Below, piece by piece: positions 40,998 through 43,894 of a stretch of DNA of 64,000 nucleotides (within the stretch, counting starts at the first letter, position 1; every line of letters starts with the position of its first letter). Made by a program: the position numbers and the translations under genes. The notes below the pieces were generated by a model. The model saw nothing but the letters and a program-made list of their open reading frames with translations, was not told the DNA's origin and did no database searches. The DNA is from Woeseia oceani (lineage in GTDB: Bacteria; Pseudomonadota; Gammaproteobacteria; Steroidobacterales; Woeseiaceae): the NCBI RefSeq assembly GCF_001677435.1, contig NZ_CP016268.1, forward strand, positions 3,895,001 through 3,959,000, written 5' to 3'.

Positions 40998-42527
40998 CTA
41001 CCGTTGATGATGCCGACGCAAATACTCATCAAGCGCACGCACGCTCCAGCCTGAATACCCCTTCGGTACGGTCGGCCGGGCTTCCTCCAGCAGGTCTACA
41101 CCGGCGATATCGAAGTGAGCCCAGGCCTGATCCTCGGCAACGAACGAACCGATAAATGCCGCGCCGACACTGGCACCGGGATTGCCCGCACCGCTGTTCT
41201 TGATGTCGGCGTACTCGGATTTGATTTGCTTGAAGTGCGAGTCATCCAGCGGCAAACGCCAAATCGCCTCGTTTGCAACGTTGGATGCTTCGGTGAGTTG
41301 TTCTATCAAGTCATCGTGACGACCGAAGACTGCGGCGTAATCATCACCCAATGCCCGGCCTGCCGACCCGGTTAACGTTGCGACGTCAATCAACACGCTG
41401 GGCTTGTAAGTGACCTGGCCGTAATGCACGGCATCGGCAAGTACCAGCCGCCCTTCGGCGTCGGTAGAAATGATCTCGATCGTAATGCCGGACATCGACG
41501 TCAGGATATCGCCAGGCCGGGTTGCCGTGCCCGAGGGCATATTTTCGGCAAGCGCAGCCAGTGCAACAACATTGACCGGTGCGCCACGACGCGCTGCGGC
41601 CAGCACGGTACCCGTCACAACGCCTGCGCCGCCGAGATCGCCTTTCATGGCCCACATGCCGTCATTGCCCTTGAGCGAGATACCGCCGGTGTCGAAGGTA
41701 ATTCCTTTGCCGGCGAGCACAACCGGTGGGCTGTCACCCCCAGCCATGTATTCAATGATTAATAGCCGGGGCGGGCGTGAGGAGCCCTTGCCAACGCCCC
41801 AATGCGCGCCCATGCCAAGCCGCTGCAGATCTTTCTCGTCCAACACTTTGATTTTGACGTTGTCGAGCCCTTTGAACAGCTCCTTTGCCCTGTCAACGAA
41901 CACCTGTGGATAAACAACGTTGGCGGGCTCCGAGGGCATGTTCCGCGCGAAGAAAACACCGGCGGCAAGATGCTTAAGGTCCCCCTCGAAGGTCGCCTGT
42001 GAGTTGTCGTTACTCAGGAGGCGTACAACCGGGCGCGTGTCCGGATCAATCTTGTCGGACTGGTACTTATCGAAACGGTAGCTGCGGAGCAAATAACCGA
42101 AGGCGACACGCGCTGCGGTAGCGTCCCGATCGGCGCTGGCAACATCCCAGAGAATCTGCACGCTGCCGCCTTTTGTTTCCGCCAGCAACGATGCGGCCGT
42201 ACCACCAAAATTCTCAGCAGCGGCGCGGCTAACGGTTTCTGTCCCCAGACCGATCAGATCTATGCGCGAATAAGGCGCGACACCGTAGAGTGTCACCGTT
42301 GCATTCGCTTCGCCTAGAAACGACGCTTCCGCCGCCGCAACCGCGAGTGCACCATTGGTTCGTTGGTCGATCGTTGCGGCAATGCCGCTTAGTGACTCAC
42401 CTTCAACCACGGGCACGACTATGCGTCCGTCTGCCGGAATATTTAACGACGCAAAATCAAATTGCTCATCAGCGTGAGATAAAGGGGCTAGTGCAAGAAA
42501 GGCAAGTAGTGCAGCAATCGTTTTCAA
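40998..42527 (-). CDS. exported leucyl aminopeptidase-family protein (M17)
   Basis: 509 residues from a TTG start at 42527 with a very good GGAG site 7 bases before it, giving a signal peptide (K-T-I-A-A-L-L-A-F-L-A-L-A-P-L-S-H-A). M17 cytosolic aminopeptidases are usually not exported, so this is an extracytoplasmic variant. The metal/active-site phrases G-K-G-I-T-F-D-T-G-G and M-K-G-D-L-G-G-A are present. The family signature N-T-D-A-E-G-R-L is S-T-D-A-E-G-R-L here, an Asn to Ser change next to the metal ligand Asp. It removes N-terminal residues from peptides. Confidence 0.9.
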   Translation of the reverse strand: MKTIAALLAFLALAPLSHADEQFDFASLNIPADGRIVVPVVEGESLSGIAATIDQRTNGALAVAAAEASFLGEANATVTLYGVAPYSRIDLIGLGTETVSRAAAENFGGTAASLLAETKGGSVQILWDVASADRDATAARVAFGYLLRSYRFDKYQSDKIDPDTRPVVRLLSNDNSQATFEGDLKHLAAGVFFARNMPSEPANVVYPQVFVDRAKELFKGLDNVKIKVLDEKDLQRLGMGAHWGVGKGSSRPPRLLIIEYMAGGDSPPVVLAGKGITFDTGGISLKGNDGMWAMKGDLGGAGVVTGTVLAAARRGAPVNVVALAALAENMPSGTATRPGDILTSMSGITIEIISTDAEGRLVLADAVHYGQVTYKPSVLIDVATLTGSAGRALGDDYAAVFGRHDDLIEQLTEASNVANEAIWRLPLDDSHFKQIKSEYADIKNSGAGNPGASVGAAFIGSFVAEDQAWAHFDIAGVDLLEEARPTVPKGYSGWSVRALDEYLRRHHQR

Positions 42528-42754
42528 ACTTATTTCTCCAGAAATGCCCCGTCGACGAATAGGCAGATTCGTTTCGACGGGCCTTGAACAAGAAACTTCT
42601 TCGTCAACGATAGCTGCGTATAGTTCAATCTTCCATACTTCTTGAAAAAGACTGGCATGCAATCCATAGCAACGACACCCAAGGCACCGGGATTGCCAGA
42701 TTCGATCGCGCCATGCCTGTCTTGCCGGCGGGCATCGCGGGAATAACTCAAGAG

Positions 42755-42899
42755 GTGGTCAGAGGCGAAATGGATTCGCTTCGTTCGCCGTTCGGGCGCG
42801 GTGAGTCTGTCTCGCCTGCGCCGCCCTGCTGAATCTCCGACACGCGGACTCACAGTCTGCAGCTCTACCCTGCCGCTGCGCGCCACGACTACCTGGACC
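42755..42899 (-). pseudogene. decayed tRNA-like copy 1
   Basis: Third and most decayed of three tandem units related to tRNA-Phe. The anticodon arm is altered (loop C-T-G-T-G-A-G, formally GTG), the acceptor ends still partly pair (GGTCCAG with CTGACC), and a stretch of about 60 bases sits in the T arm where copy 2 has its insertion. Probably not functional as tRNA. Confidence 0.55.
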
Positions 42900-42931
42900 T
42901 TGGCTTCACTGCAAAACGCAAATAGGCCTGG

Positions 42932-43081
42932 TGGTGGCCAGGGGCGGAATGGACTCGCTGCGCTCGCCCTGCGGGCGCACTTCGTGCGTCTGTAGGCGCT
43001 GGGCGCCTCGGTTGAACCACCGACACGCGGATTTTCAATCCGCTGCTCTACCCTGCTGCTGCGCGGCCCCGCTACCTGGCC
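42932..43081 (-). pseudogene. tRNA-Phe copy 2 with two insertions
   Basis: 150 bases: the acceptor stem, anticodon arm with GAA, and CCA end equal those of the intact tRNA-Phe, but 64 bases replace 2 bases of the T loop, and 19 bases replace 7 bases of the D arm. The length fits exactly (76 plus 62 plus 12). The larger insertion contains hairpins (CGCAC-TTC-GTGCG and AGGCGC-TGG-GCGCCT). Flanks match the intact gene, so it arose by tandem duplication with a unit of about 183 bp. Confidence 0.7.
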
Positions 43082-43102
43082 CGTGCCTTCGTTTCAGAAC
43101 GC

Positions 43103-43125
43103 AAAAAGGCCTGGTGGTGGCCAGG
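43103..43125 (-). terminator. terminator after tRNA-Phe
   Basis: On the minus strand CCTGG-CCACCA-CCAGG is followed by CC and a five-T run, so the last part of the acceptor stem pairs with the region after CCA. Copy 2 has the same arrangement but with the T run broken. Confidence 0.5.
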
Positions 43126-43190
43126 GGCGGAATCGAACCACCGACACGCGGATTTTCAATCCGCTGCTCTACCAACTGAGCTACCTGGCC
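43115..43190 (-). tRNA. tRNA-Phe (anticodon GAA)
   Basis: 76 nucleotides including the encoded CCA. Acceptor GGCCAGG/CCTGGCC, D arm GCTC/GAGC, anticodon stem GCGGA/TCCGC with loop TTGAAAA (anticodon GAA), T arm GGTGG/CCGCC with loop TTCGATT. All stems pair, so this is the functional gene. Confidence 0.96.
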
Positions 43191-43357
43191 CCCACTAGGC
43201 CTTTTTGCTTTGCGAGGTTTCGATCCGGGGCCGGATCGAGCGGGGTATTAGACCTATGTTGCTGATTGCAGTCAAGAATAGCGCCTGAATTCCTCCATTC
43301 CGGGCACAACGGGTGATAATTGCTAACAAAATCAGTCACCCGGACATCCAAGTAACA

Positions 43358-43894
43358 ATGGCAGCGGTACTGAAGCGCGGCAATAAGCCGACGCAGGCGG
43401 AGTTTCATGCGGCGATTTCGAGTCGATCGGATCGCTGGTTCGCCGCGTGCCTGCGGATTACCCGCAGTCGCGAGCTGGCCGAAGACGCGGTGCAGGACGC
43501 ATTGCTGTCCGCGTGGAACAAACGCGAGCAGTTCCAGCAGGGCGCGCAGCTTTCTACCTGGATACACCGCATCGCCATCAACTCGGCGCTGCAGCTTATC
43601 CGCAAGCAACGGCCGGGACGTTTCACGGCACTGGATATGGATATCGAGAGTGAGGAGGAATCGCCTGAAGAATCCAAAGCCAATATCGAACTTGCGAAGA
43701 CTCTGACCGAGGCCTGTGCGCACCTGAGTGAGATCGAGCGGGTCTGCTTCCTGTTGAAGCACATGGAAGAGTGGCGCTTGAAAGAGATCGCGGAATCGCT
43801 CGAGACCAACGAGGGCACCGTCAAGCAGGCCATCTTCCGGGCAGTAAAAAAACTTCGGGTCCGCTTGGGCGGGCTGGAGAGGAACGCATCATGA
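43358..43894 (+). CDS. ECF RNA polymerase sigma factor
   Basis: 178 residues from the ATG at 43358; a GTG at 43313 would add 15. Region 2 is visible in R-W-F-A-A-C-L-R-I-T-R-S-R-E-L-A-E-D-A-V-Q-D-A-L-L-S-A-W, followed by the R-I-A-I-N-S-A helix; region 4 in L-K-E-I-A-E-S-L-E-T-N-E-G-T-V-K. The ATG of the next gene overlaps its stop (ATGA), which with the position indicates a sigma/anti-sigma pair. Confidence 0.93.
   Translation: MAAVLKRGNKPTQAEFHAAISSRSDRWFAACLRITRSRELAEDAVQDALLSAWNKREQFQQGAQLSTWIHRIAINSALQLIRKQRPGRFTALDMDIESEEESPEESKANIELAKTLTEACAHLSEIERVCFLLKHMEEWRLKEIAESLETNEGTVKQAIFRAVKKLRVRLGGLERNAS

Follow-up and report, generated by a model that had tools for sequence, protein, structure and literature searches.

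The window, a stretch of 64,000 nucleotides from Woeseia oceani, probably contains an RtT-like array on its minus strand, in which a functional tRNA-Phe gene is followed by two trailer copies that carry a four-hairpin module in the T loop. The anatomy of the array, the covarying structure of the module, its recurrence in other tRNA genes of the same and related genomes and the resemblance to E. coli RtT in its 3' half are each demonstrated below. The array is a divergent RtT-like one in which a full tRNA body is still present, and on this basis tRNA copies with an insert in the T loop are the suggested ancestors of RtT units. To our knowledge, no account has been given of the origin of the E. 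coli tyrT repeats and the RtT RNA, although both were described decades ago. Full-length tRNA copies with a T-loop module offer one, with the units as eroded tRNA copies. This link to RtT is beyond what the preliminary description, a first reading of the sequence alone, could see.

Organization of the tRNA-Phe array

The array reads on the minus strand as an intact tRNA-Phe gene, a 33-nt trailer, copy 2, the trailer again and copy 1 (Table 1). The intact tRNA-Phe is the single RNA gene called in the window by ARAGORN and by Rfam at gathering scores. The repeat is 153 nt in length with a spacing of 183 bp and 78% identity, in agreement with the tandem tRNA-Phe and insertion-bearing copies of 183-bp period given in the preliminary description. 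Within a 39-nt block that spans the anticodon and T stem, identity to the intact gene is 100% for copy 2 and 79% for copy 1. Alignment also bears out that copy 2 retains the acceptor stem, the anticodon GAA and the CCA, and that its T-loop and D-arm segments measure 64 and 19 nt, against 2 and 7 nt in the intact gene (net +12 for the D arm).

Table 1. Features of the tRNA-Phe array in the window and of the other arrays in the same genome
Feature	Position	Strand	Basis
Intact tRNA-Phe, anticodon GAA, head of the array	43115-43190	minus	ARAGORN; Rfam RF00005, 71.9 bits
33-nt trailer/spacer, intact gene to copy 2	43082-43114	minus	sequence; recurs at 42899-42931
Copy 2, full-length tRNA-Phe copy, 150 nt	42932-43081	minus	alignment and repeats
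Copy 2 T-loop four-hairpin module, 64 nt, net +62	42950-43013	minus	alignment; R2 match 42952-43009
Copy 2 D-arm segment, 19 nt replacing 7	43052-43070	minus	alignment
Repeated 33-nt trailer/spacer, copy 2 to copy 1	42899-42931	minus	sequence and repeats
Copy 1, decayed tRNA-Phe copy, 146 nt	42753-42898	minus	alignment, repeats, pair count
Copy 1 T-loop module, 60 nt, decayed	42771-42830	minus	R1 match 42771-42828; missed by R2
Copy 1 D-arm segment, 19 nt	42869-42887	minus	alignment
Arg-type arrays	L099 2127-2850 (C1:1007.6-1008.4 kb); L100 2660-3060 (C1:3068.6-3069.1 kb)
Ser array upstream of tRNA-Ser(GGA)	L101 2213-2770 (C1:2340.2-2340.8 kb)

Two origins had been offered for the copies. One insertion followed by duplication is the simpler account within the window, since both copies have the module at the same point and repeat along with the 33-nt trailer. 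A tRNA-derived element does not hold for the T-loop module, which recurs in the loops of other tRNAs and has a conserved structure of its own. A genome-wide search located the whole tRNA-Phe unit at a single locus in its own genome, the window. The corresponding arrangement is found in a congener (G001), in which an intact tRNA-Phe (2451-2526 of L042) is followed by one insert-bearing tRNA-Phe copy, and this counts against misassembly in the window, the artefact that the preliminary description had allowed for. Plain decaying tRNA pseudogenes with unrelated inserts, or an artefact, would suit the decayed state of copy 1, but the copy in the congener and the conservation and covariation of the module in many genomes leave very little credence for either, and the recurrence of the module already disfavours this reading.

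The intact tRNA-Phe is flanked by a 28-nt inverted repeat made up of its leader and trailer (43098-43125 and 43184-43211), with terminator-like sites on both strands. The antisense protein-like phrase remarked upon earlier is present as open frames, such as 42931-43179 of the plus strand (82 aa), which is composed of tRNA and module sequence. Antisense tRNA phrases are often annotated as proteins by mistake, and this frame, like the antisense of such trailer elements in general, is open to false annotation.

Structure and decay of the module

The T-loop insert had been called rich in hairpins, which is not reflected in its folding energy, as the 69-nt stretch with the copy 2 insert has no advantage over its shuffles (z -0.51; equalled by 55 of 200). 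An advantage is seen for copy 2 in its entirety (z -2.40; equalled by 3 of 200) but not for copy 1 (z 0.20). The structure argument stands on covariation, not on folding energy.

The 33 stem pairs of copy 2 were traced in copy 1, where 11 are broken, 1 falls on a gap, 17 are unchanged, 3 are changed on both sides yet still pair and 1 has a one-sided change. Copy 1 also has segments corresponding to those of copy 2 and an altered anticodon stem-loop, so that its earlier portrayal as a more decayed version with corresponding insertions and another anticodon loop is upheld. In the copy of the congener, the module keeps 16 of its 16 pairs, 2 of them through double change, against a T stem with 2 of its 5 pairs broken, and selection therefore seems to act on the module.

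Among 13 inserts from the family to which the window belongs, the four helices covary with a score of 0.262 against 0.089 for shuffled alignments (0 of 500). A second, independent covariance model, R2, was built from 26 of the 95 non-redundant inserts found among the listed matches to a sequence pattern (described below), hand-picked for a short first hairpin. Its rows comprise 25 from a named genus or order other than that of the window and one (L244) from an unnamed gammaproteobacterial MAG. The covariation score of these 26 gammaproteobacterial inserts is 0.342 against 0.141 shuffled (0 of 500), with 12 of 18 pairs changed on both sides. Alignment columns 67-86 hold C-G in 13 rows and U-A in 13 rows (n = 26) with no exception, and the pattern behind the inserts left the two sides of these columns mutually free. 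The module is predicted to have GNA-type hairpin loops, and its CGA...GAG flanks would fit tandem G.A pairs at hairpins 1 and 4. A tandem GA motif is reported in RtT in a passage of PMC7657543.

Distribution of the module in related genomes

A blastn search of 60 related genomes found a stretch running from the anticodon stem across the insert as far as the CCA at approximately 86-94% identity in several same-family genomes, and genomes G010 and G020 carry the same insert inside tRNA-Val- and tRNA-Met-like copies. R1, a covariance model of 13 aligned inserts with copy 2 among its training rows, scores the copy 2 module in the window at 86.3 bits (a training row) and the copy 1 module at 22.3 bits (E 0.0031). 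The preliminary description had left room for the inserts occurring nowhere else, and they do occur elsewhere, with R1 matches at E<=1e-3 in 76 of 107 family genomes, 8 of which gave model sequences, leaving 68 of 99 as independent. The sequence directly next to the insert is tRNA sequence in 43 of 50 family inserts and in 8 of 200 random places. These 50 inserts, used also in the excision test below, were drawn from 70 R1 matches, and the 20 omitted, none above 37.1 bits, comprised second or third units at a locus already represented, antisense matches and weak matches.

Within the genome of the window, R1 finds arrays outside its training set at two tRNA-Arg-type loci and one tRNA-Ser locus (Table 1). 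The first Arg array consists of three units with a 178-bp spacing behind tRNA-Arg(TCG), and the second is without an intact tRNA and has only a 3' tRNA piece at its head. The Arg units copy the tRNA 3' end from the T loop on. The Ser array consists of three units with a 152-bp spacing ahead of tRNA-Ser(GGA); these units copy the 5' part of tRNA-Ser up to the anticodon loop, where the module is located, and are the mirror image of the 3' arrays.

Several further arrangements were observed. In L075 (1501-1562) and L078 (1501-1566), modules lie in five-tRNA clusters beside chimeric or decayed tRNA bodies, and in L050 (4958-5081) and L051 (10354-10489) the module is fused to another hairpin module, which lies on the opposite strand in a head-to-head arrangement. 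The exact 58-base pattern of the copy 2 insert had zero matches in the genome contig collection, and the module core pattern had zero matches in the viral contig collection. Three viral contigs (L257, L258, L259) carry the broader pattern, with no tRNA found there by ARAGORN. Searches with blastn against phage and plasmid records gave at most 13% query coverage among the matches listed (17 of 17 phage and 20 of 90 plasmid records), all in the ordinary tRNA part.

The position of the module varies, with occurrences in the T loop of Phe, Ser, Met and Val tRNA copies, within the D loop of tRNA-Ser (L081, L085) and at the anticodon loop of tRNA-Ser (L101). This would be expected of a selfish, miniature mobile element akin to REP/BIME or PATE that targets tRNA loops, with a structure serving single-stranded DNA transposition and no RNA function. 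The gammaproteobacterial genome G453 also speaks for such an element, as it has 13 related modules (L284-L296) on both strands with no tRNA within 1.5 kb, and rtT-like elements inside enterobacterial BIMEs are reported in a passage of PMC2965389. The abutment of tRNA sequence in most family inserts and the lack of an evident target-site duplication argue against a mobile element. The nearest neighbour of an insert is also at the same tRNA species for 72 of 97 loci against 20.8 expected from shuffled labels, a figure with host kinship mixed in; this grouping, with the same admixture, points to long residence over frequent hopping. A mobile element is on balance an unlikely explanation of the array. 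The G453 modules lie on one 6.0-Mb chromosome, most of them within a longer shared repeat.

On contigs G012:C96 and G026:C7, insert-bearing tRNA-Phe 3' halves share a strand and are separated by kilobases of DNA that includes accessory genes. They raise the reading of the copies as attachment-site remnants of genomic islands at tRNA-Phe, left as scars of integration and excision, but the units of the window are separated by the 33-nt trailer alone and are full-length copies, not 3' halves. The 9 Pfam-scanned ORFs of G012:C96 (L038) include no integrase, and the module is also found in tRNAs and places without islands. The island reading, highly improbable overall, was rejected for the window, in which there are no genes between units; elsewhere, too, the module mostly occurs as tandem units at tRNAs. 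For the G012 and G026 contigs the reading may still apply. In these stretches (L038 6863-15099 of G012:C96 and L039-L041 of G026:C7), an SLFN-g3 helicase and MazG-like, HNH and metallophosphoesterase genes lie between the tRNA-Phe halves, with Fic and a DDE transposase past the last copy, and the halves are perhaps island attachment sites.

Relationship to RtT

The resemblance of the Arg units to the tyrT repeats of E. coli prompted a comparison with RtT. The E. coli tyrT region has three annotated RtT features, with the order hairpin 1, hairpin 2, CCCGAAGGG, YGAG, hairpin 4, GARTA, AATCC and the 3' end of tRNA-Tyr, and this order matches that of the units found here. The Rfam model RF00391 gives 15.9 bits (E 2.5) at 42932-43059 of the minus strand, below its cut-off of 45 bits, and the whole window has no RtT match at the Rfam gathering score. 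The array is thus RtT-like and is not filed as RF00391. On five family units the same model gives 41.7, 36.9, 35.7, 31.5 and 26.8 bits (E 6.6e-5 to 0.32), all below the cut-off, and R1 is not significant on E. coli RtT, with 9.4 bits at best.

With R2, E. coli RtT reaches 63.6-71.2 bits, and many family units reach 19-44 bits. The sole R2 match at E<=1 in the 64-kb window is the copy 2 insert (E 0.011). In the whole genome, R2 has four matches at E<=1, one on each of the three units of the tRNA-Ser array (E 0.02-0.11) and a weak one on copy 2 (E 0.71), and it misses copy 1 and the tRNA-Arg arrays. As in RtT, the window units are tandem and 3' of a tRNA gene, and each has the 3' end of that tRNA. 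Copy 2, but not copy 1, has the four-hairpin module with the covarying structure of the family by R2. In place of the 5' arm of RtT, which is complementary to the tRNA 3' end, the window copies retain the tRNA 5' half.

A search of 274 genomes of the class with RF00391 gave matches at E<=0.01 in 61 genomes and above the cut-off in 18, and on 14 control genomes it gave a match in E. coli only. Thirty RF00391 loci were collected across the class, 25 with an intact same-strand tRNA at most 80 nt upstream and 5 without. These 25 tRNAs are 13 Ser, 6 Tyr and 6 Gln, two of which overlap the match. By eye, nearly all units at the 30 loci end in the 3' end of their own tRNA, with L109 and L127 as exceptions. 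A pattern derived from the RF00391 loci is present in at least 119 stretches in named genomes. Among the listed stretches, no title is from outside what we take to be the Gammaproteobacteria, and one says only Pseudomonadota. The matches listed number 165 at 122 loci (three on viral contigs), with 91 at most 150 nt downstream of a same-strand tRNA (Tyr, Lys, Gln, Arg, Ser, Glu or Thr), 43 at 150-1500 nt and 31 with none seen. R2 over 299 genomes of the phylum gave matches at E<=1e-4 in 36 genomes, 16 of the class and 20 from one family of another class (f205), in which 7 of 10 loci with RtT-like units (L268-L275, L282, L283) have an intact same-strand tRNA-Gln or tRNA-Ser upstream.

Full-length and eroded units

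In Photorhabdus akhurstii (L152), two intact tRNA-Lys genes are followed by at least eight tRNA-Lys copies with the module in the T loop, where it lies between GGTTCGA and ATCC. When the insert flanks are joined and ARAGORN is asked for a tRNA, tRNA-Lys is restored in 7 of 8 such copies. The same excision restores a tRNA in 24 of the 165 listed pattern matches (19 of them Lys) against 5 of 412 control places, and in 6 of 50 family inserts against 6 of 200 controls. The test proves insertion only where the tRNA body remains whole, and its low rate of rescue indicates that most units no longer hold a whole tRNA body.

Such an exact insertion between two T-loop residues, clearest in these tRNA-Lys copies, would also be expected of an intron-like insert that is spliced to yield a working tRNA. 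This is barely credible, as the intact gene stands beside the copies, the bodies of the copies have mutated or disappeared whereas the module persists, and no intron family is found among the Rfam matches up to E 10 in 42700-43250.

The full-length copies of the window and Photorhabdus and the eroded units of the E. coli, Gln and Arg types form a series, from which RtT units are inferred to derive from tRNA copies with a T-loop insert. In eroded units, pairing of the arm before GGTTCGA with the tRNA 3' end was compared between the own tRNA and swapped ends. The own end pairs better in 109 of 139 non-redundant listed units (30 exceptions), with a mean pairing energy of -14.5 kcal/mol against -11.0 kcal/mol for swapped ends. 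The same arms are better than shuffled arms in 114 of the 139 units (25 exceptions). An eroded unit resembles an acceptor/T-stem helix with CCA, the module standing where the T loop would be.

Proposed origin and expression of the array

For an RtT-like array of this kind, the module would once have entered the T loop of a spare tRNA copy, and unequal recombination between the repeated tRNA ends could then have multiplied the unit. The 5' tRNA body would decay, with the module, the CCA end and the closing helix kept, giving RtT-type units. The array may be co-transcribed with the tRNA, each unit folding into an acceptor/T-stem helix that ends in CCA and has the module instead of the T loop; in full-length copies, the acceptor and T stem of the tRNA itself would form that helix. 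As is reported for RtT, the enzymes of tRNA maturation may free the unit as a small RNA, and such release is likewise predicted for the window units. Acceptor/T-stem helices with CCA are minimal substrates of RNase P, a shape that would explain the release of RtT. Copy 2 could still be capable of such folding and release, and copy 1 looks like a relic.

A more general reading is put forward only tentatively, as less likely than not. It supposes a family of tRNA-loop insertions in which a 55-90-nt four-hairpin cassette enters the loops of many tRNA species with duplication of the 5' or 3' part of the tRNA, the intact gene always being left, after which the cassette is multiplied and retained as a structured RNA. 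On this view the window copies would represent an early state of the family and E. coli RtT the eroded end state.

No promoter-like site was found in 42500-43500. The terminator-like sites behind the intact tRNA-Phe include 43110-43125 of the minus strand, between the intact gene and copy 2, and they could halt transcription ahead of the copies. In other species, a passage of PMC4986893 reports Northern signals for two RtT-family RNAs beside tRNA-Asn and tRNA-Lys of Actinobacillus, and one of PMC8092127 reports higher RtT in Thioalkalivibrio at low temperature (10 degrees). As far as these passages go, they support RNA products in those species. The number of rtT repeats differs by 175 bp between Salmonella isolates according to a passage of PMC2658671, which would fit gain and loss by whole units.

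Many tRNA trailers would, on these results, carry an overlooked structured RNA or mobile element that is missed by tRNA finders and by the RtT model of Rfam. How insertion is aimed at a tRNA loop while the intact copy is spared becomes testable. Beyond the passages cited, targeted term searches of open-licence PMC papers yielded no paper on T-loop inserts in bacterial tRNA copies and none on RtT-like arrays at many tRNAs.

Comparison with known systems

The array shares with RtT (RF00391) its tandem units in a tRNA 3' trailer, each ending in the tRNA 3' end from the T loop, and the four-hairpin module with the CCCGNAGGG and YGAG...GART signatures at the same place. It differs from RtT in that its copies retain the tRNA 5' half with the acceptor and anticodon, belong to tRNA-Phe and have different hairpin sequences. 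The BIME and REP sequences of enterobacteria are likewise short multi-hairpin repeats, some BIME members resembling rtT in the passage of PMC2965389, but they are dispersed between protein genes, whereas the window-type module abuts tRNA sequence in 43 of 50 inserts. The tRNA-Lys arrays of Photorhabdus (L152, L143, L147, L226, L251) resemble the window array in having intact genes followed by tandem full-length copies with a T-loop module, at a period of about 175 bp, and differ from it in the tRNA concerned, in the larger number of copies and in having no D-arm segment that could be seen.
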